A stretch of DNA of 64,000 bases from Haliclona indistincta (lineage: Eukaryota; Porifera; Demospongiae; Haplosclerida; Chalinidae): the NCBI GenBank assembly GCA_964017065.1, contig OZ024785.1:1383142-1447141 (forward strand). Reading direction: 5' to 3'. Positions 32,715 to 52,447 of this stretch are shown piece after piece (position 1 is the stretch's first letter; every line of letters begins with the position of its first letter). The notes below the pieces were generated by a model. That model was not told where the DNA came from and made no database searches. It saw only the letters and a list, made by a program, of their open reading frames with translations. Position numbers and translations under genes: made by a program.

Positions 32715-34942
32715 TCACTTCATTTCAACACCACTTTCTTGCATACTGCAGAGAAGCACAACAAACTATGTTAGATTACAATATTTTTTTGCCTACCTGA
32801 TGTCGTCTATTGGTTTGCAACACGCTGTAAAAGAGACATCAACCCAGTCACTTATATTATGCAATGGCTTACTTTCTTTTATATACAATGCAGTCATCAC
32901 GGTTGCAATGATAGTGGCTATAAATAACAAAACAGCCAAAATACCAATGACGATCCATACCCAATCTGGGGGGCTAGTGGAGAAAGTGGGACAAGTGGGG
33001 CAAGTGGGGCTCGGTGTTGGAGAGACTGTTGATCAAGAAATAATTATATTATAAGAAATAAATTAACTCAAACTTCAAACTTCATTTCAAATTTATTAGC
33101 TATTGTAAACAAAATTAAATAGTACAAGAAACTTTTGAAGAAGTGTTCATAGTTGAGCTGTCACTGAATTCAAACCAAAAATGTTCCAATATCTCTTAAC
33201 CCTTAAGGAGACAATGTGTAGTACAGTTATACACAAACTGGTTAGTGTCATAAGGTGAGTACTTTAACTACTCACATTATGGTATAATTATGTGACTTAC
33301 GACCAATCAGATTGTTCAAAAAGTGTGCATTAAATAGCATAGATCATACTTAGGTGTGCATTAAGTTGATGCACACTTTTAGGTAAACAATGCTCAATGC
33401 TCAATGCGAAAGTCACGTGGTATGGTATATTACTTAACTTGGATAACCAATTAACTAAGCTTGCTATCTCACGTCTGCTTTGTGTGCATAGGGAACACTA
33501 GATAAGTATCTATTACAGCATCGCAATTACATGAGTATTTGTTACATAATTGCTTTACAATACATTATTATGAGCACAATAATCGTGCAATATCGAAGTG
33601 TTGTGCATCATTCTGACAGTACAAAACAACAGACTAGGAAAGTAATTGTTGCCCAGTAATAACTCACCAGTTACTAATACAAGACTGCTAGCACTTTGTC
33701 TTGCTAATCGATCTTCGCAGTACAGTCTAAAAGTAGTAGTAGTATTTATTGTGATACGTGATATGTTGTATTCCAATACTGGTCCAACAGGTATCATATA
33801 ATTGTCGAATTCATTGACCAACTGTAGTGTGTAATTTACACAACAATTAGGAGTATCAGCAGGAGGATCCCATGTCAACAGACGAAGAGTTGCATTATAA
33901 TTTAAATTCCGAGGAGCCGAAGGTCGATCTAAAGTGATAAATATTACTTATTTTATGCCTACCAGGTGTGAGTATACCATATACACGAGGTACGCCCTCG
34001 GGTTTATTAGCACAATACCAAGTGTGAATGGTAAACAGGCACCATGGTGGGCATGGAACATGTGACTTGTACGATGGTAACCTAAAGGTTGGCTTACTCC
34101 TTCCTTTTTCTTTCCAAGGGAAGGTAAGATGTTCATCACGACCATCAATTTTTGAAGGAAGGGATTTACCAACCCAGGTGGGTAATATACTGTATCCTCA
34201 CGTTAATCTCGAACGCTTCCATAGTTCATTGATCATTTTGGTTCAAGAGCTAACTCAGTCCGAGGCACTTCATCTTGATCTTTGTACAGTTGCGGGCTGT
34301 GCCTGGTCATGACGTAAGTAACACATACGTATACGAATAATAAGGCAAACTAGTGCATGTGCAAACAGCACCACCCACGCAATCGAGCCCCACCCCTTGA
34401 AGACGAGGCTAATCTTAAGGACTACCATAGTACAATCTATCTAACCCTAATAAAAATGAAATTATATTATAGTTGAACTTACCAGCCAAATTTACTGTAA
34501 CACTTTCGGTCACAACTCCATCAAAACAAAACAACAGTATGTCACTTGTGACCCTGTCAATAGTTGCTGTCGACATCAGTGTATTACCAGATTCTTCAGT
34601 AAGAAGCAAGGAAAATTCCCCCAATGAAGCAGTCGCTCCAGGATCATTAGCACTAGCAGTGAAGCGAAATGTAGTTCCACTAGCATCTCGCCATTCAAGT
34701 AACCCAATGGCAGTTGTTTGACAACTAAATGATCCTGTCGTGTCACCACACACAGTGCTATTAGATAGTGGTTGCAGGTTAACTGGGGACAATAATAAAG
34801 ATAAACACACATCGCCACGCCCCGTTTCACTGTAGTTTGAAATTCACTAACACTGGTAACACGACACGTACTTACCCTGCCCTGAAACCAGCCCGTAAGT
34901 ACTTATAAACACAGCAACAACGATGAATGACCAGATAGTCAT
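32715..34942 (-). CDS. Receptor gene A: Ig-FN3 single-pass protein, tyrosine-free tail
   Basis: Six exons splice in frame: 34876-34942, 34483-34782, 33668-33928, 32873-33025, 32797-32824 and 32715-32745, giving 279 residues. A signal peptide (MTIWSFIVVAVFISTYGLVS) leads into an Ig-like domain (about 23-122, cysteines in GSFSCQ and LLFCFDG, tryptophan in LLEWRD). An FN3-like domain follows (123-209, LLTWDPPADTP), then a Ser/Thr/Pro stalk with two cysteines and a transmembrane helix (about 231-258). The tail is about 21 residues and has no tyrosine. The intron between exons 2 and 3 is about 550 nt, unusually long here. It sits in tandem downstream of receptor gene B with the same strand and exon phases, so the two are probably paralogous. 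Ligand unknown. Confidence 0.72.
32951..33012 (-). repeat. Proline-rich stalk repeat of gene A
   Basis: A short GTGGGGCAAGTGGGAC-type repeat encodes the SPTCPTCPTFS stalk just outside the membrane. Confidence 0.5.
33930..34482. other. Large intron of receptor gene A
   Basis: No gene is seen on either strand. The open frames here overlap each other and lack partners. The size contrasts with the 45-120-nt introns typical of this window and suggests an insertion. Confidence 0.5.
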
Positions 34943-35203: not shown

Positions 35204-35883
35204 TCATTGCTGTACAGAAGCATAAATAATTTTGTCCCGATTGACAGCGGGTGGTGCAACTGGCGTTGCTCCTTTGGCAACTCCCAGGTCAGCATAAATT
35301 ATATTTTCATCTTTTTTACACTTAGTTTTGTCCTGTAAGTAACATTAAGCAAGTGTAGAAATTAAAACTAAATAGTTACTATATACCTCATTTTGATGTT
35401 GTTTGATACTTGAGTAGACCACAGGTTCAGCAGCTTGTGGTGGTATTGCTGGTGCTACTTTGTTAGGTGCTCGACCAAGATCAGCATAAATAATACTTTG
35501 TGGTTTTGGATTAGTTTGTTTCTAAAGGTATTATAATGAATAAGCTATCAAATACAATTATATACCTCATTTAGTTGTGTCACACTTGAGTAGACCACAG
35601 GTTCAGCAGCTTGTGGTGGTACTGCTGGTCTTACTGTTTTAGGTGCTCGACCAAGATCAGCATATATAATACCTTGCGGTTTTGGATTAGATTTTTTCTA
35701 TAGTATAATAATCATCAAGCTATCAACTTTGAATATAATTATTATTACCTCATTTTGCTGTCTAACACTTGAGTAGACCACAGGTTCAGCAGCTTGTGGT
35801 GGTATCGCTGGTGCTACTTTGTTAGGTGCTCGACCAAGATCAGCATATATAATTCCACCATGAAACATTGTATTAGCTTGTTC
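35204..35883 (-). repeat. Four tandem ITIM-like cytoplasmic exons
   Basis: Exons of 135, 132, 135 and 129 nt, all phase 0-0, separated by introns of about 45-55 nt. The first three share GRAPNKVAPAIPPQAAEP-like linkers almost exactly; the last is more diverged. Because every exon is a multiple of three in phase 0, any of them can be skipped without changing the frame. Confidence 0.8.
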
Positions 35884-37762
35884 CTATTATTAATAAGAAG
35901 ATAAACATAACCATGTTTTTACAATTCACAATACTTTGCTTTGCAGTTCAACACAGTTTTCCGGAAATAATGAGTAGGAATTTGCGGTACTTTCATCATT
36001 CAAGGGCTATAAATTATGTTATGATCAAATGCAAGCATTGTGAACATACTATTATACCTTTGTCAATTGCTGTTGATTATTAGTTTTATCTGATCAAAGT
36101 CGTAATTATTAACTCTAATATTAAGTGCTACTTACTTTTAATTCTAAAACACATAATAGCTCCTGTAATTGTTATCACAATTACTATGCTTATGACAACT
36201 ATTACTCCAAGTGAAGCTGCTATTACAGTAGTAGTGCTGCCACTAGCTGATGAGGTAATAATTACACAAAACTCAGTGGTGCAATTATAGTCACCTGACA
36301 TTGTTGGGAGTGAAGGTGTCAACTCAGACATAGAGGTCAATGTCACAGATGATGTATCTAGAAAATGCAACATAAGATTTTAAAGCATGCATATGGATGT
36401 CTAACTGTTTAGCTATAATACACATAATGAGATTACGCACCAGCAGTAGATGCATTGGGATCACCTGTCGATGAGCTCCTGGGAACACCATTCTCTATAG
36501 GAGAATTTTCTGCTGAGTACGTTGATGTTACTGCAATACCAGCAGAGGTTGATGATAATATTACTATAAGTAAATAAAGTGAAATGATTATGATTGGTTA
36601 TGTTATGCAGTGTACTACCAGTAACTGTATCTTGGGCACTTGTTCCTTGTCCAACAATATTCACAGCAGTCACATTGACTGAATAGTGACCTGGTGGTAC
36701 TCCATCAAGAGATACTTTAACAACTGGACTGGTATTATTAATGATAGTTGTACTTCCTGTTGCTGTCAGATTGTGTGTTAATATATAATGAGTGACTAAT
36801 GTACTCTCTATCTGAGGGACCTGTCACAAATCTAAAACGAGTTTTTATACACATTATATAGTCTTACAGTCCAGTTTATAAACAGGAAGTCCATCATAGT
36901 CACTATGGAGATGTTAAAGGGTGCTAGCTGTGGAACTGCATTTCTATAATAATAATTTAACTAATTGTGTTAGGTACTCACCATCCCATAAAATATCTAC
37001 CACCTCACTCCAAGGACCTGTTGTTAAATTAGCATCTTCAACAGCAACAGCAAAGTGATAACTCATAGCAACACTCAAGTCAGTAATTGTCAGTGATGTA
37101 GTGTTTGTTCTGTATTGAGTTACTAAACCATTGCTGCTACCATTGACAACATATGAGAACATGCAGTTATTATCAGGTGATGACCATGATAAGGAAATTG
37201 ATGTAGAACTTTGAGGAACAAGAGTGAGGTTAGGTGGTCTGGAAATGGCACCTAATAAAGAAGAACATAAAAACTGTACGTTTTATGATGACACTTACCT
37301 GATATTAAAATGGTAGCATCATCATTAACATCCATAATACCCACAGCAATGCATCGAATGTTAGTATTGTTGTGAGAGAGAAGAGCACCATTCAATGTAG
37401 CAGTAGTCACAATACTAAAATTTGAATCAAATGTATTTTGAAGTACTCTTATAGTAAATGATCCAAAGGATATACTTGAGTTCTCCGATTTGCCAATAAC
37501 ATTTAAGCTTAGCTGCATCACTACAACTCCCTGCTCACTATATGCCCAAAGCACATTTGCAGTTGGTACATCTGTTAAAGTGCAGTTGTATACTAGATCC
37601 TGTCCCGGGCACACTGTTACACCATGAGGACTGATTTGAGTCAGAGTTACTGGAGACATAAATCAGTACAGTATAAGTCACCACTGCGGGCTCACCTGAA
37701 CTGGACTCCACAATAGTTGATAACAACAGTAAGTGGACAAAAAGCATTACGTACACATGCAT
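35204..37762 (-). CDS. Receptor gene B: Ig-FN3-FN3 protein with eight ITIM-like motifs
   Basis: Fourteen exons read by splice signals and phase give 629 residues: 37696-37762, 37299-37649, 36982-37251, 36868-36935, 36619-36820, 36441-36563, 36295-36357, 36136-36246, 36058-36089, 35935-36006, 35749-35883, 35566-35697, 35387-35521 and 35204-35332. The order is signal peptide (MHVYVMLFVHLLLLSTIVE), Ig-like domain (23-139), FN3 (140-229), second FN3 (230-319), Ser/Thr-rich stalk, and a transmembrane helix (about 389-414). The last four exons each encode IIYADLG and a second motif (VVYSSV, VVYSSI or IIYASV). The tyrosines are at 466/490, 510/534, 554/578 and 600/624, always 24 apart. Both motif types fit the ITIM consensus, which in animals recruits tandem-SH2 phosphatases. 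The inhibitory role is inferred. Whether the 48-nt stretch 36247-36294 is intron or coding is uncertain; both keep frame. Confidence 0.78.
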
Positions 37763-37949
37763 ACTGGTAATAGGAGATTTACTGCCACGGTAACTGGCTA
37801 TAAGTCAGTCGCAAACTACTGAGGTTTTATAATAAACGGATACGGACATAAATCATACCCACGTCCACCTGTTTGTAAGCCCCGCCCCAAGTGATTTGAC
37901 CGAGGCGCTGCGAGGCTGATCTATATAATTTAGCGTACGATTAGGGATA

Positions 37950-38060
37950 TTTCTGATTTCAAGTTGGATTTCTAGGTGGATTTCTGGATTTCTAAATTTC
38001 TCGTTGGATTTGTTATTTCAGCGCTTGGATTTCTGGATTTCACTTGGATTTCTACTGACT
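37950..38060. repeat. Degenerate TTGGATTTCT repeat
   Basis: A short motif around TTGGATTTCT is repeated imperfectly several times between receptor gene B and the TIR element. Confidence 0.6.
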
Positions 38061-38092
38061 GTGTACGAGACTTTTCAGGCGTGTTGGACCGG

Positions 38093-39643
38093 TGTCATAA
38101 AATATCGGGGATCCCCTCAATCGGGGATCCCGGGTCCCCATTCTCCCGGTAGATCGGGGACCCCGGATCCCTATTCTACCGGTAGAATGGGGACTCCCAT
38201 CCCCATCCTCACGGTATAATGGGGATCCCGGGATCCCTATTCTACCGGTAGAACAGGGATCCCCTCGTGAGGATGGGGATCCCTTGCTCGCGATCGTAGT
38301 CAGGACTACTCAAGATAGTAAATAACAGTAGAATACAGCAACTATAGTGCCAACTCGAAGTTTATTACCTGCCTACCTAGTTATTACACAGAAACATCAG
38401 TAGGGATTAGACTAGTTAGTTTCATGTATCAGTTTCAATCATAGTTTTCTCAAAAGATAGATAGCTTGGTTAATATTCTAGTTCTATGGAATAAATACTG
38501 GCATACAGTGACTGCAATATTGAATCTTCCGAGGCAGCATTGTTCTTCTGTTTGAGGGTCACCAACATTGCCTGCATTATTATTAGATAATCAAAATTCA
38601 CAAGTGGATAGTTATCAAACTTGCCTGTTTGAACAGAGCATCATGTGCAAGCTTGAACACTAGCATATGATTGGTATACCCACACTCTTCAATTATTGTT
38701 TGTAGGACTGCTAAGACATCAGTGAGCTGTACAATTATCAATGTTTCAACTGTCATCTAATCATTTTTAATTTGTGCCATACTTACATATTCTTTCACTT
38801 CTTCAGATAGTCTTGGCCAATAGTACTTGCTAACAAGGTCTAGCATTCTATTTACACCAAGATGTCCACTGTCATGAGCGTTGGTCAGGATCCTCTTTCG
38901 CTTTTGCACATCTTCAACTACCAATTTCATCTTCTCTATCATCATGTGTATAGTGCATTGATAGCTATCATGCATGCATGCGCTTACTGGATTTGCTGCC
39001 AGTGTAGTATGAAACGCTCCCTTGCGTAGTAGAAAACTTCGCCCGTTTGCGCAACCCACTCTTTTCAGCCTTAGTGAATCCTTCCGGATAGGTGCCATCT
39101 CGTAGATACTTGTACAAGTGAGTATACTCAAATCTACCATCGCTCAGCTGCTCGCTTTTGCTACCATTGTCTACAGCAGAATCCATTGCCTCTGACATTG
39201 CCAATATTGCCTCTGACATTGCCAATATCCATTGTCGACAATTAATATTAATTTTTTTTACAAAAAATACTATTGCCAGTGTACTGAATAATAATAATAA
39301 TAAATCACTACATTTAAAAATGCAAGTGGTACAGCGTCTACTAAGACTACTGGATTTAAGTTGCACCTTTGTTCCCGATTCAACTGAGTAGGCTAGTTAG
39401 ATCAGACCTGCATGGTGTGGAATAGATTGACAGTTCAAATTATGCAAAGCTGCGTTCAGTCAGTTATAAGCTCCTTTGGCCAGCCTTTGCACGCTGACCG
39501 TGACTATGTAAAGGAAGGGATCCCCATTCTCACGAGGGGATCCCCATTATACCGTGAGGATGGGGATCCCGGGATCCCCATTCTACCGGTAGAATAGGGA
39601 CCCGGGATCCCCATCCTCACGGGATCCCCAATATTTTATGACA
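38093..39643. mobile_element. Ginger-like DNA element with long inverted arms
   Basis: The ends are TGTCATAAAATATCGGGG and, inverted, CCCCAATATTTTATGACA, each flanked by CCGG (38089-38092 and 39644-39647), a candidate 4-bp target duplication. The arms (about 38093-38290 and 39510-39643) are made of GGGATCCC- and CTACCGGTAG-type palindromic pieces. The interior holds a small spliced gene with an integrase-type H2C2 segment. The TGT ends, 4-bp duplication and integrase relationship point to the Ginger group; the catalytic core is absent, so it would be non-autonomous. Confidence 0.65.
38470..39219 (-). CDS. Integrase-derived H2C2-type protein without catalytic core
   Basis: Four exons (38988-39219, 38787-38935, 38625-38726, 38470-38571) join in frame to 194 residues; the third intron would use a GC donor. 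The N-terminal part (YLRDGTYPEGFTKAEKSGLR) and NAHDSGHLGVNRMLDLVSKY with YYWPRLSEEVKEY match the zinc-binding N-terminal region of gypsy and Ginger integrases. The expected CxxC half of the H2C2 finger is replaced by a different sequence (LTDVLAVLQTIIEECG), and no DDE core follows. It lies inside the TIR element, so it is either a shortened element protein or a host-type gene copied into it. The start is the first of three in-frame ATGs, in a 21-bp duplicated stretch. Confidence 0.55.
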
Positions 39644-39659
39644 CCGGCCCCTCGGTTGA

Positions 39660-40055
39660 CTACTCCACAAGGTCTGTTTAAATTTAAAGAACAACACTCG
39701 ATGAGGTAGTAACAGTTGCTGTAGCCTATAGCCGCCTATAGTCTTTATTTTAAAAGGCCAATCTCCGCTGCGATGGGCAGCATGATTATAGCAAAAGATA
39801 ATTTTGCCGGGCATGTGCCCAACAGAAAGTATCAACTGAGTTAAATTTAAAGGAAGAAACGGATTGGATAAAATTAGCTAGGAACAACTAGAGTATACTA
39901 GGAGAGGAGTATACTTGTCCCTAGAGTATACTAGGAACAAGGTACGTTTAGTATAGTATCATAGTAAACATGACTTCATTTACCTACTAGCTTTCTACCA
40001 ATAGACGTTATTCATAAATTCCGCGCGCGATTGCGTCACCAGTGACGCAATCTAC
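39660..40055. other. Intergenic, no gene seen
   Basis: Contains repeated GAGTATACTAGGA-type sequence around 39890-39940. No supported gene. Confidence 0.5.
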
Positions 40056-40951
40056 ATTATTATTATTATTATTATTGAAAAACACACCACATAAGGTGTA
40101 CATGTAGATTTAAAATTAATGTTAATCTGTAGCAATTGTCCTTAGCATTAAGTCAATAGAAGAGCTTCCCTGACAAATGTTAACAGTGCTTGATGACAGC
40201 AGGAAATCTCTTAATACTATAGCACATCTCTCGTCATCATTGGAATATTCTTTTAAATAAGTTCGACAACAAAAAATATTGTGTCCAGAGAAAGTATAAG
40301 CCAAATCTTCGTTAAAGATCAGTTTGACCAAAGTGTTTGAGTTGTTTTTTGCATTTTTGATAAATTTAAGCGATCTTGAAGAAACCAAGTTATAAATACT
40401 TTGGACTCTAGTACATCGATGCAGGATACCGGTATGCGTTCTACGAGGTAATCTCCAGATACGCCGCAGACAGTTGTTTAATACAACCTCTAAACTCCTT
40501 AGACCAGGAGAAGAAATATTCCAAAGTTCGCAACCATACAGAGCTAGACAATATGATGAAAACAGATATGTCATAGGAATCGGTCCGATATTTGGAAAAG
40601 TAGAAAATAAGCTATTAGCAGCCCTGGATAAATAACGAGATTTTAGCAGAATATCTTCATCGTCACAGAGATTATACTTTAGCTTGTTACCCAAGTGCAC
40701 GACGGTATTAGAAAATTGGAGAGGCGAGTCACAGAAGAGGAAATTAGAATTAATATTGTCAAAATCAGATATACACCCAAACGAAAATTAATAAGCTGAG
40801 TCTTGAGAGGATTGAAATGTAGACCAAGACAACTACCATGTGATTCACAAGTAGCAAGAAGGGTGCGTAATGCAGAGGCAGAAGGTGCCAAAAGCACTAT
40901 ATCATCTGCGTATGCAAGGGCGCCTGCATAATGGCTATTCCAAAAACATGA
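40056..40951 (-). mobile_element. LINE 3' fragment (family 2), RT palm onward
   Basis: The minus strand encodes ALAYADDIVLLAPSASALR (RT catalytic YADD) at about 40870-40930, then after a frameshift near 40690 a 192-residue C-terminal part with YGCELWNISSPGLRSLE and LRRIWRLPRRTHTG. The 3' end is an (ATT)n tract at 40055-40078. A second fragment of the same family is at 46567-46980. It is truncated at its 5' end close to the target duplication of the LINE at 40966-44263. Confidence 0.8.
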
Positions 40952-41072
40952 CCGGACCAATCGGCTACGTAACCGGATAGTTCAAAGTTCAAAGTTTATT
41001 ACTGTTGCCCTCTACGGGATAATAATGACAAAAACAAGAACTACTGAAGTAGATGAAATAAAAAATATAGAG

Positions 41073-42881
41073 TCAGTCTGTGAACTTTAGACACGAGATT
41101 TTCTCAGCAAGGTTAATAAGATCATGAAAGTTCTTGTTCTCCAGCCATTGTATTATGGTCTCAGTGCTGTATTTTGACTCAGGTAGATGACTTGAAAACA
41201 GATGTTCATAATAGTTCGATGGAATTTTATCGCCACAATGAGGACATAGTCTCTCACCAAAGGTCGGTCTTGAAAGAGCATTAAAAAGCCCCTGCATTAG
41301 CTTAGTTCCACGAACACCCAGCTCAAGTGCCTCATCCCATATGCTGTTCCAACTTGAGGCAATATTAGCTGTAGCTGACACAAGTGAGAGCGAGGGATGA
41401 GACTTGGACTCCGCTAGTGTTCCTTCCCAGTCACTCGCAAGAATATCTTGCTTCGCATCATGAACAATTGAAAGTGCATCAGGAGGATTGTGAAGACAGA
41501 GTTGCAGGAAATTGGTGCCAAAGAAGCTCTCCAGAAAACGGCATTGTTGTACCAGACTGATTTCATAAACATCATCCGAGGCCAGAGTACGAAAAACTCG
41601 AGAACTTATGTTATCGTTATTTACTAGAACTCTAGCCAGGAAATTGAGCTTTCGAATAAGGATGTGTGCCTTAACAGAGGGCCAGTGAAGACCAATCAAG
41701 GTACTGGTGTTAGAGTGGAATTTAGACAACCCCAAAATCCGCTTTCCAATCTCAGCTTGAAAAGACTCCAGAATTTGTAGATGGGATTCAGAGAGTATCC
41801 AGGTTTCACAACCATACAACAAGGTAGGCACAACAAATGTCTCAAATAAGCTACGTCCAGTGAGAGGATTTAGCTTCCCATGGAAAGCTCCAATGGAGCC
41901 TAAAGCAAAGAAGGCACGCCTAGCTTTGCTAATGCTCTCTTCAACAGACTTCAATGGAGACAAGTCATACCTCCACCACACACCAAGGCATTTCGCTTCT
42001 TTTTGAGTAACAACTTCCTGGCCAACTAATTCAAGCATACATTCATTATATCTCCCCTTAGTGGTTAGCACAACTTCAGTTTTACTAGCATTAAGCTTCA
42101 AGAAGTTTGCTTGACAAAATGCCTCAATTAGATTACCTTGAGTATGAGCAGCAGACTTGCTTAGGCTAACAGCCCTGACATCATCTGCATGAGCAGAAGC
42201 ACCCACATGTAAGCCCAACAGGTTTAAACCCTGGCCAGCACTCTCGAGAAAATGTAGAAGTGAGTCCATTACTGCAATAAACAAAGTCGGGGAGAGCACA
42301 GATCCCTGCTTCACACCACGACCTACTGGAAAGCAATCAGAACAAATTCCATTAACTTTCACGACACTACTGGTGTTCGAGTACCAGTCTTTAATCAGAC
42401 GCCAGCATCTACCATTGACACCCAACTTGAATATATGAGAAAGTAGTGTAGAGAACTCAACAGAGTCGAAAGCTTTCTCCAAATCAAAAAAGCACAGATA
42501 AGGAGTGTCACCATCACGGATATGTTTCAGGATTGTTTCTTGGGTTGAGAATATAGCATCGATACACGACAGACCTCTCTGATATGCTTTTTGGGAGGGG
42601 TGAGGAAATCCGATATCGACAAAAAGTGACAGCAATCGCTCAAGAATAATAACTTCAAGGCATTTTGAGAGAACAGATGTCAGAGTAATACCTCGGTAGT
42701 TGTTACAATTTAATGGGTCACGCCCCTTTCCTTTGTGCACAGGAACAATCATGCCAAGTTTAAAACTTGTAGGGATTTGCTCTAGCTGAAAGATGGCATC
42801 AAAAACACGTTTCAGCCACTTAACAATCCACGTGCCAGCATATTTAAGATGTTCAGCAGAGAGACCGTCAGGCACCAGCAC
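41073..42881 (-). pseudogene. LINE family 1 reverse transcriptase part
   Basis: A 602-residue frame begins at the conserved PDGLSAEHLKYAG stretch. It contains the RT blocks CFFDLEKAFDSV, GVKQGSVLSPTLF and the palm motif AHADD (usually YADD), then YGCETW and a C-terminal CPHC-x10-HLFSSH zinc-knuckle-like motif. It is separated from the endonuclease part by a single extra base near 42870 (GGTGCCTGAC where GGT-CCTGAC is expected). The remainder is open, so the insertion looks recent. The H in place of Y in the palm motif is unusual. Confidence 0.82.
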
Positions 42882-44242
42882 TCTTACTCAACTTGAGTCT
42901 CTTCAAAGCACTTTCAATTTCTTCACTAGTGGTAGGATAGTCAAGGATAAGATCCTCAAACCCATGAGATAGGGCTTCCATATCAGCCAGGTCAGATTCA
43001 TTCTTGTTAGCTACATTCACAGGAATTTTACTCTGAGAGAGTTCGGAGAAATGGTCTTTCCAAAAATTCCTGAGTTCATCATCATCAGAGACCAGAACAC
43101 CATCAACCATGAGCTTTCTGCATTCAGACCTTCGACGATTGATACTAAAACGGTGATCATCCCTTTTTCTAAACATCTCATCTCTGGCCTGTAAAACCTT
43201 TCGCTCCAACTTTGCTCGAGCTTTAACAACATGTGCTTTCACTTCTTTCTTGGTTGTTTTCATTTGTAAGTAAAGAGGACCTGTTCTCGGCCGGCCAGCA
43301 TCACGCCAACGTCTCCAAGCAGATTTACTACGCTGACAGTTTTCCTGTAGCTCTTTATCATGGATAAAGTCTTTTGCAGTTTTACGTTTGTGACGAGGGA
43401 TTGTATCATCAGCCGCTCGATGCAAGAGAGAGATGACAGTTTTAATTTCAGAGTCAACCTCATCAATGCTAGTCAAGGGTTTCTCACAAAAAGGTCTTAA
43501 ATACAAGGTCATCACATCTCGAAAAAGATCAATGCTGCCATCAGTAGAGGCCTTACGCCAGTCTAGCTTTGGAGTGGAACTGTCAGGATGAACCACAAAA
43601 TCAGGTCTACAATCAAGTCTTACTCTCAGAGCAAGATGATCTGACAGGTTTAGTGGGTGGTGATCAAGGACAGCACAATCAACAACCAAATGGGCAGCCC
43701 AACAGTCAAGGAAACAATAGTCAACAGTGGTATTCTCACTTCTACCACCATAAAAAGTATAAGAAGGACCAACAGAGAGATCACTTAATGATACTGCATA
43801 GTGACTGGTACGATCGATTAAGTCCATAAGTAGTTGTCCTTGCGGATTTGTTTGATCTTGTGCACGACAATCACAAAGTTGGCTAATATGAGCATTGAAA
43901 TCCCCGATCAATAGTACAGGACCATTGGACTGTAGAGCATACACCACATTTTCAAGCTCCTGCAAGTACTCTTTGTACACTGAAAGAGGATAGTCAGTTG
44001 TAGGAAGATAAACACCCACAATACTAAGAGTAGTTGACTCTCCCACGCACAGCTGTACAGCAATAATTCTATCAGAGTCAATCTGCAAGGTACTCACTGG
44101 TAGGATACTATTCCAAACAACACCAATTCCACCACACCCTCTAGAGAGAGTAGATCCCTCATGCAGTCTGCGATCAGAAAGACCCACTCCTTTAAAACCT
44201 GGGATAACTGAGTCAAGCTTGGAGAGTTCGTACGGCCAGAGC
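42868..44242 (-). pseudogene. LINE family 1 endonuclease part
   Basis: An APE-type endonuclease is encoded, with GDFNAH, VDYCFLD and LNLSDHLAL motifs, followed by the linker to the RT. The frame continues upstream of the first ATG (44187) through WPYELSKLDSV to about 44242, showing that the element is truncated rather than starting there. It ends in a stop right after the KSAGA motif because of the one-base insertion shared with the RT part. Confidence 0.8.
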
Positions 44243-44335
44243 CAGTGTCAGAGCCGGCCAGAGCCGGACCAATCGGCGCGCGCGCGCGTGTGAGTGGCGG
44301 ACCGGCTGCGAGGAGCGAGTGGCAAGCACCATGGC

Positions 44336-46180
44336 CGGGGCAAGAGCTGCTGCGCTATTGGGTGCACCAATCGTTATTCTAAAGATTCAACTATATAATT
44401 CTATCGAATTCCAACTAATCCTGACAGAAGGAAACAGTGGATTACTGCTATAAGGAGAGAAGGTTGGAATCCTGGTAGTTCAAGTTGCATCTGCAGGTGA
44501 GCACTTCGTGTCAGGTTAGCTACTTACCGATTTTTTTACAACCAGTATGTTATAATAGTTAACAGTGAACTATGCAACAACATTAAACTCGAATCGATTT
44601 TTATAGGTTGTAAAAGTGATGATAAAACTCATCCCGATTACGTTCCAAGCATTTTTTCTTTTTCGAATAGTCAAGATCTCGTTAGAAGAAAACGAGCATT
44701 GGAACGACACGTTCGTTCTATAAAATTACAAGCAAAAAGGAAAAACAATGGAGCTGAGGACAGAGCAGAAGAAACAATAAACATAGAAAATCAAACTCAG
44801 ATTAGTAGCAGAGTGGAAAGAACAACAATGGAAAATCCTACCTGCAGTGAAACTACATCTGGTGCTGAGGGCAGAGCAGAAGAAACAATAAACATAGAAA
44901 ATCATACTTCCCAAACTATTAGTAGCAGAGTGGAAAGAACAACAATGGAAAATCCTACCTCTGGTGCAACTACTTCTGGTACTACATGCTTGAGTTGTGC
45001 CACCCTGCTAAGTAAAGTAGACAATCTTTCGCATCAAGTGTCTGAGCTAAGAAAAGCTTAATCATCTCAGAAGTACATGCAAGTGAACAAAGGATCCAAC
45101 ATCTTCAATTGGAAATGTTGTTAAATCAGGCAACCGCTTCTATTGGTGTACTTCAGAAGGAGTGCATTGAGAGCAAAACTGCTTGTCATAGTCTTGCTGT
45201 AGTGAACACTGAGATACAAGTAGAAAAGTAATCATTGGTTGATGAACTTGAAGTTACTAAGAAGGAAAATAAGAAACTACAATACAATAAAAAAGAGTAA
45301 TTGGTGGATGAAAACAGAGAACTAGCAAGTTTTTTTTAATAGAAGAGAGTATGAAAACATCCAAAAAAGAAAAATTCTATTCTACACTGGTTTGCCAAAT
45401 TTCGAACCGCTAAAACTTGTTTTAGACACTACATGTAAGCACATCAAGTATAAAACAGAGAGGTCGACCAACATTCCTAGGTGATTTTCAAGAAATTGTT
45501 CTTATTTTAATGAAGCTAAGACTAGACTTAAGCGAAGAAGATATTGCATATCGATTTCGAATTTCCCAATCTACAGTTTCTAGAATATCTGGGAAATGGA
45601 TCAAGATTATGGCAGAGAGTTTAAAGTTTTTAATACGATGGCCGAGTAGAGATGAAGGGCAACCATTTCTCGCAACAACTTCCCAAGATGCACAGCTATT
45701 ATAGACTGCACTGAAGTATTCATACAAAGATCTTCAGATTTAGAAGCGCGAGTGCAGACATGGAGTCACTACAAACATCATAATACTGTTAAATTACTCA
45801 TCGCCATTAGTCCTCAAGGAACCATAACCTTTATCTCTAGGTCATATGGAGGACGAACATCCGATAAATATATAACGGAGAATTGTGGAGTACTTGATAA
45901 CCTGCTTCCAGGTGATCAAATTCTAGCAGATAGAGGATTCACAATAGAAGAAAGTGTAGGTCTATATTGTGCAGAGGTGAAAATTCCACCTTTCACCAAA
46001 GCCAAGAAACAACTAACACGCAGTGAGGTAGATCGTACAAGGAAGCTAGCACATGTACGCATTCATGTGGAACGTGTTATAGGCCAACTCAAGAAAAAGT
46101 TTAAAATATCGGCGCCCCCTGCACTAAACATACTGCCCCGGCATTTCTATGGCTTCAGTAAAAATTCCATAACATTTTAG
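44336..46180 (+). pseudogene. THAP-DDE transposase relic (ISL2EU / PIF-Harbinger type)
   Basis: The plus strand holds a broken THAP-type zinc finger: CAIGCTNRYS, then FYRIPTNPDRRKQW after an in-frame TAA, then CIC and EHFVS separated by a one-base insertion. After an intron (about 44516-44606) follows DDKTHPDYVPSIF, and then a region of duplicated ETINIENQ repeats. Downstream are a helix-turn-helix stretch (EEDIAYRFRISQSTVSRI) and a DDE core with [15 protein letters not shown] and [14 protein letters not shown]. At least three frame breaks and further stops are present. A THAP finger fused to DDE_4 is typical of ISL2EU elements. It is not functional. Confidence 0.75.
44759..44972 (+). repeat. 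~120-bp direct duplication inside the THAP relic
   Basis: Two direct copies with GCAGAAGAAACAATAAACAT and TAGTAGCAGAGTGGAAAGAA; they encode the repeated AEETINIEN part. Confidence 0.7.
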
Positions 46181-46199
46181 GAAAAACAAAATGGCTGCC

Positions 46200-46566
46200 A
46201 AGAAATTTTGGACATTTTATGGCTTCGGGTGCTCGGAAAACACATTTTTGCGCATTCTCTATGATCTGGGCTACATTTTACACTCACCAAAACCACTGCT
46301 ATTTATATGTACTTTTCAGTAGCCAGCCCCAAAGTACTAACTTTGAGCAAAATTTGACGAGGTCGCTGCACTTTATCGGCTTCACTTTCGAAGTGGGAGG
46401 GGCATATCGACCGAGTTGAGTGTGGGCAATTGCGGCTACTCACTGGGGTAAAAGGACGCAAATTTGAGACAAGTAGCTCAAAAGACACACGAGATATTCA
46501 CGAGAGAAGTGGTCAGCATTTACGAGGTTAAAATTTCAGCTGGATAATTTAGTAATTAAAGGGTTA
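46200..46566 (-). mobile_element. Diverged copy of the 53.3-kb MITE, inverted
   Basis: GACGAGGTCGCTGCACTT and flanking bases match the reverse complement of the element at 53345-53953, and the end reads TTAAAGGGTTAA at 46555-46566. The other end is not clear. Confidence 0.5.
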
Positions 46567-46980
46567 ATATCTGCTTGCGACGTATCTGGTCCCTACCTGC
46601 TAACACTCACACTTCTATTTTGCACTGTTGTGCTAATATGTTAAGTATTTATAACCTTGTAGTCTCTAGATCTGCTAAATTTATTGACAGAGCTTCTAAC
46701 AGTTCGAATCTGCTTGTTCGTGCTGTTTTTCGTGAGTCATCTGTTCTGGTGTATTCCTTTGCTGGTCTCAATTCTGTGTTTGGGTCACAATTTTTGAAAG
46801 TCTACCATGATGATGATAAATATTGTGCTGCTGTTGTTCGACCATTTTTGAAAAGGAATCTTGATATTATTCATGGTACTTCTGATACTGAACTAATGCT
46901 CCGGACTATTCTAACTTCTTAATTATATTTATGTACCTATGTTGGTGTGTGTTCTCAATAATAATAATAATAATAAGATT
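46567..46980 (+). mobile_element. LINE 3' fragment (family 2), second copy
   Basis: The plus-strand frame 46575-46922 (MRRIWSLPANTHTS to LMLRTILTS) is homologous to the C-terminal end of the element at 40056-40951, and it ends in the same type of AAT/AATA repeat tail (46959-46978). It is strongly 5' truncated. Confidence 0.8.
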
Positions 46981-48050
46981 TCGTCATTTTACTGCCTCGT
47001 AGCAGCGCGCCATTCATGCCATTGCATGGTAAATAGCGTACGTAGCCTGGATGGAGTGGAGAGCAAGATAGAGACAGCTGTGTCAGGCAAGACAGCTGTA
47101 CTAGGCAAGGTATATACGTTAATAAAAATTTTGGTTGGGCAAAAGCGAGGAGGCAAGCGCCTCCTCTGCCTCACGGTAGTTACGCTACTGGGTTTGGTTT
47201 TATTTCTCGATGCGTTAGCGCTCGAAACATTAGTAACATCAAATACGTAATTGGCGCTTAATAAATAATTTTGCGCATGCGCGTTAAGCTTCCGGAGTCG
47301 CTATTAGACGCCATTATTGTGATTGCGCAATACGCACGTGACCAAGCAGTGGTTAGCGCACGTGACCAAGCACTAGCTTGAGTATCACCACGCCGTATGG
47401 ATCACGGAGAACACACATTTGTCTGGAGTCTTCGAAGAACTGTAGGCTCGTATAGGATCACCATTCTGCGCTTGTCCGATAATTACAACCGCCGTACAGG
47501 TCTACCAGCTATTGTGGGCGGGGCTCGTATCCACTGCATGCATGCATGCGTAGGCAAGCTGATAATATAACAAGTATATTCAGCTACAAGTTTAAAATTC
47601 TTAATAATAAGGAAAAGCCATCAACAACAGGAAAACTAAACCAATGGTGGAAACAAAGACAGCTCAGTACATGCATGATATCGAACTGCACTGCACTGAA
47701 AAAGAGAAAAGGACACAAACAAGAAATTAAAAAGACTTCTATCGAAATCAAAAGGATGTAGGGTTGTGAAGTCTACCACTGGTCCACAATTTAAACTAAC
47801 AAGGAACAATCATGGAATGTTAACACAATTGACTTGCTAACAGACCATAGATCCCTACATCAGTGGCTGTACATGAGATCAATAAATTATTTTGTCACAA
47901 GCTGAATGCACGTTAGGTGTCAGTTAACAGCAACTAGCTGAACTAGCTATAGCCAATCACAGCAGCCACTGATGTAGGGATGTACTGATGTACTCATGTA
48001 CTGATGTAGCCACTGATCCATGTTTTTTTACACCCGCCCACGCACAGGTC
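46981..48050. repeat. Foldback-family sequence, partial copies
   Basis: Includes GCAATACGCACGTGACCA-type and GGGCGGGGCTCG-type sequence also seen at 6180-6350, 48120-48310 and 49500, and one arm with GATCCCTACATCAGTGGC at about 47757-47880. No gene seen. Confidence 0.55.
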
Positions 48051-49117
48051 AATACGCGAACTTGGATACCTCATTACATCAAAGAGAATTATTCATATCA
48101 TAGTTTAAATTTTGATTACGCAATACGCACGTGACCATGCAACCACACGAATTCTAGAAGTAGAGTATCGCCGTATGGAGAGCGCATATTGGCGTCTGGA
48201 GTCTTCGAAGAACAACTCACCAAGTAAGCTCGTGCAGTATCACCGTTCTGCTGCTCGCCAGATAGTATCACAGCCGTACAGAATTTTGTAAACTAGAGTG
48301 GGCGGGGCTCGAATGGTTTGCAGAATGCATGAGCTAGACTCAGCTAGTTTGAGTATTTAGGAATAATAAATTCTGAGCTACAAGTTAAAAAGGTCACATA
48401 AAGAAATTATCAACAACAGCAAACCAATGGTGCAAACAAAGAAATACATGATCTGGCTGAATTCGAACTGTACCAAAATCTGAAACTCAAAAAAGGACAC
48501 AAACAAGAAATAAAATGATTTCTAACGAAATCAAAAGGATGTAGTGATGAATGAAATCTGCTACTGGTCCACAATGTAAACCAACAAGGAACTAGCATGG
48601 AATGGTAACACGATTGACTTGCTAACAGACCATAGATCCACATCAGTGGCTGTACATATAATTTTGTCACTGTCAAGTTGAATACAATTCAATGCACTTC
48701 GGTGTCAGTCAACGGCGACTAGCTGAATTAGCTATAGTCTGCCACAGCAGCCACTGATGTAGGGATCTATGGTCTGTTAGCAATTCAATCGTGTTACCAT
48801 TCCATGCTAGTTCCTTGTTGGTTTACATTGTGGACCAGTAGCAGATTTCATTCATCACTACATCCTTTTGATTTCGTTACAAATCATTTTATTTCTTGTG
48901 TAGTGAAGGACGGAAAAACAAGATGGCGGCTACGTGCAATGTATTAGCGTTCAAATGCTGATATTTCGCCTGGTGATGAATTTTATACGTCCAAAGACAC
49001 TAAGATCTGCTCTCTGACGTTGCCCCATCTTACAGTAGCAAGGAGATTGCTCGAAATTGTTACTAAAGTGACGAACCTGGAAACTGTGAAAATCGAGTTT
49101 AGTCATCTTCGTTTTCT

Positions 49118-49207
<90 letters not shown>

Positions 49208-49302
49208 TTCCTTCCTTCCTTCCTTCCTTCCTTCCTTCCTTCCTTCCTTCCTTCCTTCCTTCCTTCCTTCCTTCCTTCCTTCCTTCCTTCCTTCCTTCCT
49301 TC

Positions 49303-49334
<32 letters not shown>

Positions 49335-49400
49335 TTCAGCGTGCATAGCGCCTTTATGCGAGCAGTGAGAGTATCACCACGCCGTATGGATCACGGAGAG
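48051..49400. mobile_element. Foldback element copy with expanded TTTC tract
   Basis: Opposite orientation to 5568-6785. It has two inverted arms (about 48500-48645 and 48750-48890), then the unique part with CGCCTGGTGATGAATTTTAT, then the TTTC microsatellite. No transposase. Confidence 0.6.
49112..49333. repeat. (TTTC)n / (TTCC)n microsatellite
   Basis: About 220 bp of tetranucleotide repeat: TTTC at both ends and TTCC in the middle. It sits where the related element at 6523-6555 has only about 30 bp of GAAA/GAAGAAA. Confidence 0.95.
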
Positions 49401-50280
49401 ACACATACCCTGTATTTGTCTTTGAAGAACGGTAAGTTCGTGTAGGATTGCCATTCTGCGCTTGCCAGATAATTGTAACCACCATATAGTTCTACAAACA
49501 AGTGTGGGCGGGGCTCGTATGCATGCGTAGGCGAGCTGATATGTACAGCATAACAATTTAGCTACAAGTTTAAAATTATTAATAATAAAGAAAAGCCATC
49601 AACAACAGGAAGACTAACCTAAGCCATCAACAACAGGAAGACTAATCTAATGATGGAAACAAAGACGGCTCAGTATACATGCATGATATTGAACTGAAAA
49701 AGAAAAAGGACACAAACAAGAAAATTAAAAAGATTTCTAAAGGATGTATGGATGCTGAAATCTACCACTGCATGGTTCACAATGTAAACAAACAAGGAAG
49801 CATGGAATGGTGACACGATTGACTTGCTAACAGACCATTGATCCCTCTTTATTACTTTAAAAAACGAATTAAACTTACTATAGCCTAACTCTTGTCTTTG
49901 TGTTTGCTTGTTTTTTTTTCCTAAAGTTTTCTGTTCTGTTCCTTACTTCACACATGTACATTACCACTCACTTATCTTTTCATTAATGATACTCTTAATA
50001 TTAGTCTAGTGCTGTTGAGTATCTGCAAAAAAATCAGTGGCTGTACTAAAGATCAATAAAAATTAATTATTTTTGTCACAAGCTGAATTCAATTCAATGC
50101 GGCACGTCAGGTGTCAGTGAACATACAGTAACTAGCTGAACTAGCTATAGTCTGGCCACAGCAGTCACTGATGTAGGGATCTATGGTCTGTTAGCAAGTC
50201 AATCGTGTTACCATTCCATGCTTGTTCCTTGTTGGTTTACATTGTGGACCAGTGGTAGATTTCATCATCCCTTTATAGTA
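49401..50280. repeat. Another foldback-family copy
   Basis: Arms around 49730-49850 and 50165-50270 with CAAGTCAATCGTGTTACCAT and its complement; a duplicated AAGCCATCAACAACAGGAAG lies at 49592 and 49621. No gene. Confidence 0.55.
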
Positions 50281-50506
50281 TCAATTTGACAATGTCTACA
50301 ATAAGTGAGTGTCCATATAATTATTATGGGTGTCCACAACAGGGGCTAAAATTCAGTCTCATTTTTTATATGCAAGCTACACTCTGTTTACTTCTAAAAT
50401 TTTCATTGCATGCCAATCGACTATCCTTATCTATTTGATAAATTTTTTTTCTATCCAGTTAGTGACAGACTTATAATTACGAGGCAGTAAATCTCCTATT
50501 ACCAGT

Positions 50507-52447
50507 ATGCATGTGTACATAATGCTTTTTGTCCACTTACTGTTGTTATCAACTATTGTGGAGTCCAGTTCAGGTGAGCCCGCAGTGGTGACCTATACTG
50601 TACTGATTTATGTCTCCAGTAACACTGACTCAAATCAGTCCTCATGGTGTAACAGTGTGTCCAGGACAGGATCTAGTATACAACTGCACTTTAACAGATG
50701 TACCAACTGCAAATGTGCTTTGGGCATATATTGAGCAGGGAGTTGTAGTGATGCCGCTAAGCTTAAATGTTATTGGCAAATCGGAGAACTCAAGTATATC
50801 CTTTGGATCATTTACTATAAGAGTACTTCAAAATACATTTGATTCAAATTTTAGTATTGTGACTACTGCTACATTGAATGGTGCTCTTCTCTCTCACAAC
50901 AATACTAACATTCAATGCCGCACTGCTGTGGGTAATAATATGGATGTTAGTGCCGCAGCTACCATTTTAATATCAGGTAAGTGTCATCATAAAACATCCA
51001 GTTTTTATGTTCTTCTTTATTAGGTGCCATTTCCAGACCACCTAACCTCACTCTTGTTCCTCAAAGTTCTACATCAATTTCCTTATCATGGTCATCACCT
51101 GATAATAACTGCATGTTCTCATATGTTGTCAATGGTAGCAGCAATGGTTTAGTAACTCAATACAGAACAAACACTACATCACTGACAATTACTGACTTGA
51201 GTGTTGCTATGAGTTATCACTTTGCTGTTGCTGTTGAAGATGCTAATTTAACAACAGGTCCTTGGAGTGAGGTGGTAGATATTTTATGGGATGGTGAGTA
51301 CCTAACACAATTAGTTAAATTATTATTATAGAAATGCAGTTCCACAGCTAGCACCCTTTAACATCTCCATAGTGACTATGATGGACTTCCTGTTTATAAA
51401 CTGGACTGTAAGACTATATAATGTGTATAAAAACTCGTTTTAGATTTGTGACAGGTCCCTCAGATAGAGAGTACATTAGTCACTCATTATATATTAACAC
51501 ACAATCTGACAGCAACAGGAAGTACAACTATCATTAATAATACCAGTCCAGTTGTTAAAGTATCTCTTGATGGAGTACCACCAGGTCACTATTCAGTCAA
51601 TGTGACTGCTGTGAATATTGTTGGACAAGGAACAAGTGCCCAAGACACAGTTACTGGTATTATAAAACCAATAATAATCATTTCAGTTCATTTACTTATA
51701 GTAGTATTATCATCAACCTCTGCTGGTATTACAGTATCATCGACGTACTCAGCAAAAAATTCTCCTATAGAGAATGGTGTTGCCAGGAGCTCATCGAAAG
51801 GTGATCCCAATGCATCTACTGCTGATGCGTCATCCTTAATCATTTCATTATGTACATGTATAACTAAAACAGCTAAGCATCTCAAATGTTGCAATTTTCT
51901 AGGTACATCATCTGTCACATTGACCTCTATGTCTGAGTTGACAACTTCACTCCCAACAATGTCAGGTGACTATAATTGCAAAGTTGACTCTGTGTAATTA
52001 ATAATGTAATTCTGTGTAATTATTACCTCATCAGCTAGTGACAGCACTACTACTGTAATAGCAGCTTCACTTGGAGTAATAGTTGTCATAAGTATAGCAC
52101 TTGTGATAACAATGACAGGAGCTATTATGTGTTTAAGAAATAGAAGAATCATTGAGTGGTGTGTTATGAGGAGAAGGAGACCATCATCACATGCTACAGC
52201 AACTACTGACCATGATAAAGAACAAGTCACTGAGCTAGCTACAGTGATCTATGACACACCTAATGTCATCAAGGAACACACCATCACTACTCAAGAGAAT
52301 GTAGCTTATGGAGGGACAATACCACTCAAAGAGAATGTAGCTTATGGAGGGACAATACCACTCAAAGAGAATGTAGCTTATGGAGGGACAATAATACCAC
52401 TTCAACACAATGAGGCTTATCAACAAGTGTATATCAACGATGTGTGA
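50507..52447 (+). CDS. Receptor gene C: gene-B ectodomain copy with a different tail
   Basis: Exons 50507-50573, 50620-50976, 51024-51293, 51340-51407, 51455-51656, 51702-51965 and 52035-52447 splice in frame to 546 residues. The signal peptide, Ig domain, two FN3 domains, stalk and transmembrane helix follow receptor gene B closely; exons 3-5 encode identical protein. The donor after the stalk exon is changed from GGTG to GATG, but the former 78-nt intron has no stop and stays in frame. After the membrane the tail is unrelated to gene B: a basic RRRR run, VIYDTP (Y482), three AYGGT repeats (Y501, Y513, Y525), EAYQQV (Y538) and VYINDV (Y542). YDxP suits Crk/Nck-type SH2 domains and YxN suits Grb2-type ones. 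Signalling role inferred. Confidence 0.7.
52292..52402 (+). repeat. Three 36-39-bp tail repeats in gene C
   Basis: Units of GAGAATGTAGCTTATGGAGG-type sequence encode ENVAYGGTIPLK three times; the last unit has an extra ATA codon. Confidence 0.9.

Follow-up and report, generated by a model that had tools for sequence, protein, structure and literature searches.

Here we describe a head-to-head pair of receptor genes, A and C, in the genome of the sponge Haliclona indistincta, whose near-identical outer parts are joined to unrelated cytoplasmic tails and are kept alike by gene conversion. The genes lie in a 64,000-nucleotide stretch of DNA, hereafter the window (GenBank contig OZ024785.1; C3:1383142-1447141 of a 144 Mb genome assembly in 46 contigs), and a second copy of the pair is found on C10. 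Both this layout and the concerted evolution of the partners can be read directly from the four genes. We propose that A and C form a paired receptor system, in which A, with a tail of immunoreceptor tyrosine-based inhibitory motifs (ITIMs), would restrain a positive or adhesive signal of C; we judge the case for this proposal to be evenly balanced, and the positive role of C is one that we infer.

Two inverted receptor genes with unlike tails

The exon models of A and C, drawn from the sequence, have GT/AG at all intron borders and frames without internal stop codons, and they end exactly at the coordinates at which a first-pass annotation of the window had placed two inverted receptor genes (Table 1). 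Their 5′ ends face each other at a distance of 12.7 kb. Both genes start with a signal peptide (identified by eye) and have a common exon order, with an Ig-like exon, an FN3 exon, a second FN3 domain over two exons, a stalk and a transmembrane (TM) segment. The Ig-FN3-FN3 make-up given in that annotation held for its FN3 part, as Pfam fn3 matched two stretches (E 2e-11) and residues 117-317 matched PDB chains of receptor-type phosphatase delta (E 1.8e-10), but the Ig domain stayed below the Pfam threshold (Ig_3, E 0.07 for A and 0.15 for C) and is called Ig-like mostly because of its C..W..C pattern. Homology between the genes begins 50-55 bp ahead of the start codons and stops with the TM exon; past that point they are unrelated. 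The annotation's statement that ectodomain and TM helix are nearly identical and the tails unrelated is thus borne out by a 92.6% identical block that stops at the TM exon.

In the tail of gene A, all eight tyrosines lie within the pattern [ILVST]xYxx[ILV], with IIYADL followed in each exon by VVYSSV, VVYSSI or IIYASV and a spacing of 24 residues between paired tyrosines (counted by eye). The tail of gene C (VIYDTP, three ENVAYGG and HNEAYQQVYINDV) holds one YDxP, four NxxY (three ENVAY and one HNEAY), one YxN (in QVYIND) and a lone YxxV (EAYQQV). None of its six tyrosines lies in an ITIM, nor do any of the 18 that A and C have between them in ectodomain and TM. The first-pass annotation had recognized the eight ITIM-like motifs of one tail and the YDxP and YxN of the other, and missed the four NxxY and the lone YxxV. 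NxxY is a PTB-type motif, YDxP is Crk-type and YxN is Grb2-type. No immunoreceptor tyrosine-based activation motif (ITAM) was found among the six tail tyrosines of C, and no charged residue in its TM segment (VIAASLGVIVVISIALVITMT); the TM helix of A is likewise uncharged. The tail of A had no PDB match at E values up to 10.

The copy of the pair on C10 (A′ and C′) is also head to head, in a block that is about 85% identical to the window. It is collinear with window 27-54 kb and preserves the order and orientation of B-related sequence, A and C; for most of the A-C interval the only matches to C10 are repeats, and pieces of window 55-57 kb match elsewhere on C10. The start codons of A′ and C′ are 10.3 kb apart. 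Both genes have GT/AG splice sites and use an earlier donor after exon 6, with which their frames are open. In gene C, the splice donor that follows stalk exon 6 of A is lost (GT to AT; window 51819-51900), and C either continues in frame through what was once the intron or splices from an earlier donor, like A′ and C′.

Over A and A′ together, 18 of 18 ITIMs are intact in nine tail exons (A′ read by eye). The four tail exons of A are tandem duplicates, so its eight consecutive ITIMs do not count as independent evidence; the evidential weight lies in the retention of ITIMs in the diverged last tail exon and in A′. Conservation of the motifs within the near-identical repeats was considered as proof and rejected, as counts by eye over the seven alike tail exons of A and A′ show variation in 2 of 12 motif columns and in 6 of 18 spacer columns, which is no clear difference.

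Gene B, the neighbour of A in the window, had been described as an Ig-FN3 gene without a tyrosine in its tail. The tail (KETCCKPIDDISMQESGVEMK) is indeed free of tyrosine, the nearest one standing at the membrane edge (ALYIK), but in the two ectodomain exons Pfam detected no Ig or FN3 domain. A long simple repeat with (FLSFFLSF)/(KERKKERK) frames (window 49100-49370) lies between the transposon frames and gene C. Window 63627-63723 matches 52145-52241 at 96% identity and represents part of a C-type TM-tail exon; it diverges after EQVTE and is perhaps a broken copy. Window 1-31000 is occupied by a tandem array of collagen genes, which we take to be of the short-chain kind, with a collagen repeat and a conserved cysteine-rich C-terminal part; nearly all of their frames are on the minus strand, and many copies are about 80-96% identical. 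This array and the general gene content support a sponge origin of the sequence; a silicatein motif gave no hit.

Table 1. Coordinates of genes, domains and matching segments (window positions unless a contig is given)
Feature	Position	Strand	Basis or identity
Gene B, 6 exons: two ectodomain exons, TM, short tail	32715..34942	minus	open frame
Gene A, 12 exons, 592 aa: signal peptide, Ig-like, FN3, FN3, stalk, TM, ITIM tail	35204..37762	minus	open frame
Gene A exons 9-12, four tandem tail exons with two ITIMs apiece	35204..35876	minus	exon model
Gene A exons 6-8, stalk and TM helix	36136..36563	minus	exon model
Gene A exons 3-5, two FN3 domains, the second split by an intron	36619..37251	minus	exon model, Pfam, PDB match
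Gene A exon 2, Ig-like domain	37299..37649	minus	C..W..C pattern, Pfam Ig_3 sub-threshold
Inverted homologous block, gene A side, 92.6% identical to 50457-52146	36135..37817	minus	sequence comparison
Endonuclease and reverse transcriptase frames of long interspersed element (LINE) type, between A and C	41073..44247	minus	Pfam Exo_endo_phos_2, RVT_1
DDE transposase frame, between A and C	45656..46180	plus	Pfam DDE_Tnp_4
Inverted homologous block, gene C side, partner of 36135-37817	50457..52146	plus	sequence comparison
Gene C, 7 exons, 546 aa: A-like ectodomain and TM, NxxY/YDxP/YxN tail	50507..52447	plus	open frame
Gene C exon 2, Ig-like domain, 93% amino acid identity to that of gene A	50620..50976	plus	exon model
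Gene C last exon, TM helix and tail (VIYDTP, three ENVAYGG, HNEAYQQVYINDV)	52035..52447	plus	exon model
C10-matching segment	27139-33216		83-87%
C10-matching segment	33657-33940		76%
C10-matching segment	34479-37900		85%
C10-matching segment	50448-52614		85%
C10-matching segment	52751-54371		91-96%
Gene A′, five ITIM exons, ten ITIMs (10/10 tail tyrosines, by eye)	C10:6083922 down to ~6081200		open
Gene C′, four NVAYGG repeats	C10:6094253 to ~6096176		open

Gene conversion between the partners

In an alignment of A, C, A′ and C′, sites were scored for agreement between partners versus agreement by position. From exon 1 to intron 6, 76 sites agree by partner and 2 by position, with 3 crossed, whereas from the TM exon onward the counts are 2 and 25 (Fisher 1.2e-19 for this contrast; the test excludes the 5′ flank, 4:1, exon 7, 0:1, and intron 7, 0:0). 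The Ig exon alone contributes 30 partner sites against none by position, plus 30 against none among indel columns. Elsewhere, position is favoured by 12 indel columns in the 5′ flank, by 1 in intron 5 and in part by those of intron 6 (8:6).

The divergence between partners is uneven along the genes. Across exons 3-5 with their introns, a single difference separates A and C in 633 compared positions, whereas the Ig exon has 11 in 324 (p 5e-5) and the part further on 37 in 430 (p 3e-14). Synonymous divergence (dS) in the Ig, FN3-1 and FN3-2 exons is 0.057, 0 and 0.016 between A and C and 0.026, 0.121 and 0.049 between A′ and C′, with at most 7 synonymous changes in each case; since the two dS profiles differ, the conversion tracts seem to be differently placed in the two pairs, on these small counts. 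In the Ig-exon tree of 17 paralogues, support is 89/86 for A joined to C (below the tool's star) and 99/99 for A′ joined to C′. The FN3-1 tree shows no difference between A and C, the exon 5 tree groups them (98/93), and the TM tree is unresolved. Together, these results demonstrate that gene conversion between the inverted copies keeps the outer parts of the partners alike, most clearly in the Ig exon.

The ratio of nonsynonymous to synonymous divergence (dN/dS; Nei-Gojobori point estimates without significance test) in the Ig exon is 1.28 between A and A′ and 1.24 between C and C′. The corresponding ratios are 0.33 and 0.37 for FN3-1, 0.40 and 0.56 for FN3-2, and 0.51 for the C-C′ tail. Comparison of the partners within each pair yields Ig-exon ratios of 0.58 and 0.80, from few changes. 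By exon mapping, paralogues are about 66-73% identical to C in the Ig exon and about 88-96% in FN3-1; to be named apart are g617m, with two Ig fragments at 68 and 88%, and gene A at 92%. The Ig domain is the variable part of the family, and it is nearly alike within each pair.

Receptor family and signalling partners

At least 17 genes have a close ectodomain, namely A, C, two on C10 and 13 others on C3 at 0.6-1.6 Mb (131 of 580 candidates of the ectodomain genome search were scored, which makes these counts lower bounds). The C-type tail is far more widespread. A genome search with the TM-tail exon of gene C, in which 141 of 141 candidates were scored, gave 139 matching stretches at about 120 places after merging by eye and exclusion of the TM exons of A and A′, spread over C3, C8, C10, C5, C6 and C9; on account of these places we regard the C-type tail as the default of the family. 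Twenty such tails, picked by V[IV]YDT and [AD]YGG, hold 102 tyrosines, of which 71 lie in NxxY, 9 in YxN and none in an ITIM; their 20 YDxP motifs are largely a product of that selection. The last exon of C has 128 database relatives (predicted proteins), and 20 of these that we inspected mostly keep VIYDTP, NVAYGGTIPL and NEAY, the exceptions being P0146 (without NVAYGG), P0189 (IFDTP), P0154 (YDIP), P0236 (VVYDVP) and P0239 (without NEAY).

Close copies of the tail of A were found in the genome search only in A and A′ (next best E 8e-6). The IIYADLG pattern ATHATHTAYGCNGAYYTNGG occurs nine times in 144 Mb, four times each in A and A′ and once at C3:954k, and never in a reversed control. A search with the full-length A protein gave no match at E 0.001 among 8000 candidates scored, which is no sign of rarity because the database holds uninterrupted predicted proteins and A has 12 exons. 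More distant ITIM tails were found in four FN3-type genes at C3:650k, C3:954k, C8:6594k and C8:6694k, which, like the C3:3.19-3.98 Mb cluster described below, were read by eye from unspliced frames. These genes are like A in their FN3-like frames, a TM frame (3 of 4) and separate exons with YADLG ... VIYSDA/VVYSTV units, but their ectodomain belongs to another lineage. At C3:650k, a stretch of 458 bp that starts with the FN3 exon (cut by the end of the locus) shows 96.5% identity between the ITIM gene and the next downstream gene. Because the 22 ITIM units taken from other loci, like the C-type tails, were picked by patterns that contain motif letters, conservation of those letters was not counted.

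In C3:600000-1650000, the minus strand carries most of the close family members below 0.95 Mb and the plus strand most of those above 1.2 Mb, and the frames downstream of g665m and g1361p are nearly alike, as in a large inverted duplication. A separate gene cluster at C3:3.19-3.98 Mb (3189000-3980000; L047-L050, L053) has ITIM units like YADLHHSTNPPAPPLPVEPVQYATV, with tails of several alternating YADLHHSTNPPAPPLP...VQYATV ITIM pairs and a frame of up to 290 aa. Beside the C10 pair, C10:6104000-6511000 holds a large cluster of FN3 matches with many tyrosine phosphatase matches, perhaps an expanded set of FN3 receptor phosphatases.

The genome also encodes phosphatases of the SHP type (SH2-SH2-PTP), at no fewer than three loci on a search that scored 150 of 351 candidates. 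All three domains stand in one open frame at C9:7652368-7653885 (572 aa) and at the adjoining C9:7649661-7651151 (581 aa), and a third locus, in pieces, is at C2:12786026-12788136. An inhibitory role of A through such a phosphatase is plausible, because 18 of 18 ITIMs are intact in A and A′ and tandem-SH2 SHP-type phosphatases are encoded.

Candidate pairing, rival explanations and known systems

We suggest the following mechanism. A and C would bind one common ligand, on which A would be phosphorylated on its paired ITIMs and recruit a tandem-SH2 SHP-type phosphatase that damps tyrosine signalling. The tail of C would serve as a phosphotyrosine dock, for PTB adaptors at NxxY and for SH2 adaptors at YDxP and YxN, and would give a positive or adhesive signal that A holds back. 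The family probably arose with C-type tails, and the ectodomain-TM block may later have been joined to ITIM exons resembling those of other FN3 genes in the genome, giving rise to A.

A number of observations weigh against such pairing. Gene C lacks a known activating device, as it has neither an ITAM nor a charged TM residue, and with C-type tails at about 120 places it is not a dedicated partner of A. The opposite signalling tails claimed by the first-pass annotation could therefore not be upheld; of its paired-receptor analogy, the layout stands, with a second pair on C10, alike ectodomains and tails kept apart. On C10, clear homogenization is confined to exon 1, intron 1 and the Ig exon: C′ is 96.7% identical to C but 95.9% to A′ in FN3-1, and 97.8% to C but 89.1% to A′ in intron 3, intron 5 follows position, and A′ and C′ are not grouped in the FN3-1 or exon 5 tree. 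About 46 substitutions per comparison underlie the Ig dN/dS values above 1, which are point estimates. In the A-A′ tail exons, dN/dS is 1.28 for the first and 0.58 for the last, which gives no clear constraint and makes constraint on the tail spacers weak. Conversion, moreover, must end at the TM exon, because homology ends there. Last, homogenization may follow from inverted proximity alone, because the control pair g775m/g778p, inverted neighbours with unlike TM segments and C-type tails on both (assigned by position), also shares an Ig type (100/97); close inverted copies thus seem to convert whether their tails differ or not. Conversion of the ectodomain is the pattern of paired receptors, but is no proof of selection for pairing.

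A different explanation would be that tails were shuffled without opposition in a large adhesion or recognition family and the alike ectodomain is a by-product of conversion, without selection for a shared ligand. The same-tail neighbours g775m/g778p, the loss of A/C homology at the TM exon, to which conversion is limited, and the default status of the C-type tail all agree with it. However, the unlike-tail pair outlived a block duplication of about 15% divergence with all ITIMs intact, and FN3-1 is constrained while the Ig exon evolves fast between pairs yet is alike within them. We consider shuffling of this kind possible but doubtful. Another reading, which we judge improbable, makes the ITIM tail an endocytic tail or a positive scaffold of the SHP2 type; A and C would then both be positive or be sorted differently. 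Docked SHP2 can act positively, and the Pfam family SIT, an SHP2-interacting adaptor, matches the A tail, but this match is sub-threshold and not significant (E 0.11), and inhibition is what bare ITIM pairs usually signify. A misassembly, or the joining of exons of different genes, might be suspected as the gene models come from sequence alone and a transposon-bearing 12.7 kb separates A and C. Such an artefact is very unlikely, because both genes recur on C10 at about 85% identity, in the same order and orientation and with open frames and GT/AG borders.

Compared with vertebrate receptors, A and C have neighbouring near-identical ectodomains, one ITIM member and a similarity kept by conversion; an activating member, recognizable by an ITAM or by a charged TM residue and adaptor, was not found. 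By this comparison the pair is a strong analogue of vertebrate paired receptors, and its layout is closest to that of SIGLEC11/SIGLEC16. These primate genes are head to head about 9 kb apart and undergo gene conversion in the ectodomain (PMC5701461). The sponge pairs are similar in their head-to-head arrangement (12.7 and 10.3 kb), near-identical ectodomain exons and one inhibitory member. Siglec-16, however, uses an ITAM adaptor, whereas gene C has no charged TM residue and has a long tyrosine tail of its own. CEACAM pairs combine an ITIM member with a member that has its own tyrosine tail (PMC2832619, PMC5112662), and their N-domain exons are kept alike by conversion or recombination, with synonymous divergence uneven along the gene (PMC2832619). 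A and C resemble them in the tyrosine-tailed partner, the converted exons and the uneven synonymous divergence; the CEACAM partner has an ITAM-like motif, and gene C has YDxP, NxxY and YxN instead.

Among invertebrates, the fester co-receptors of Botryllus and Alr of Hydractinia are Ig receptors of allorecognition loci with ITIM or (hem)ITAM tails, according to a 2025 review (PMC12065747). Like A and C, they form multigene families, those of Botryllus on several chromosomes (PMC12065747), but the Botryllus pairs consist of a fester gene and a co-receptor, proposed to be heterodimers (PMC12065747). A head-to-head pair with homogenized ectodomain and unlike tails was not found for Botryllus or Hydractinia in the passages of the review that were examined (PMC12065747). 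That review calls the mechanisms of invertebrate allorecognition a mystery, describes the candidate proteins of sponges, cnidarians and ascidians as unrelated, and records ITIM and ITAM motifs in animals ranging from Hydractinia to mammals (PMC12065747). For sponges, cell adhesion is the role mentioned in a review that covers the Ig proteins of invertebrates (PMC11999971). No report of a sponge paired receptor was found, by title or start of abstract, among the papers listed from an open-licence library. Homology to SIRP, KIR, PILR or SIGLEC11/16 was not seen among the best 60 of 62 PDB chains at E up to 1 (phmmer, PDB only), and homology wider than FN3 was not significant in Pfam or PDB sequences. 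The best PDB matches were receptor phosphatases, tenascin and titin for the FN3 part, with weak matches to T cell receptor alpha for the Ig part (E about 0.1-0.75). There may be a distant Ig-fold relation to the SIRP, KIR and PILR families.

The layout of twin receptors with unlike tails has so far been known mainly from vertebrate immune receptors. We put forward, tentatively and as a possibility that falls short of an even chance, that a sponge-grade animal evolved inhibitory/positive paired receptors separately from vertebrates, with an Ig domain under diversifying selection that conversion across a head-to-head inverted repeat keeps identical in both partners. If so, each change of ligand specificity would reach both signs of signal at once, and the pair would be an obvious candidate for recognizing self and non-self, or microbes, in sponges. 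Defined genes, motifs and phosphatases are at hand for testing this proposal, which, if true, would place the logic of paired receptors near the base of animals or mean that it evolved more than once.

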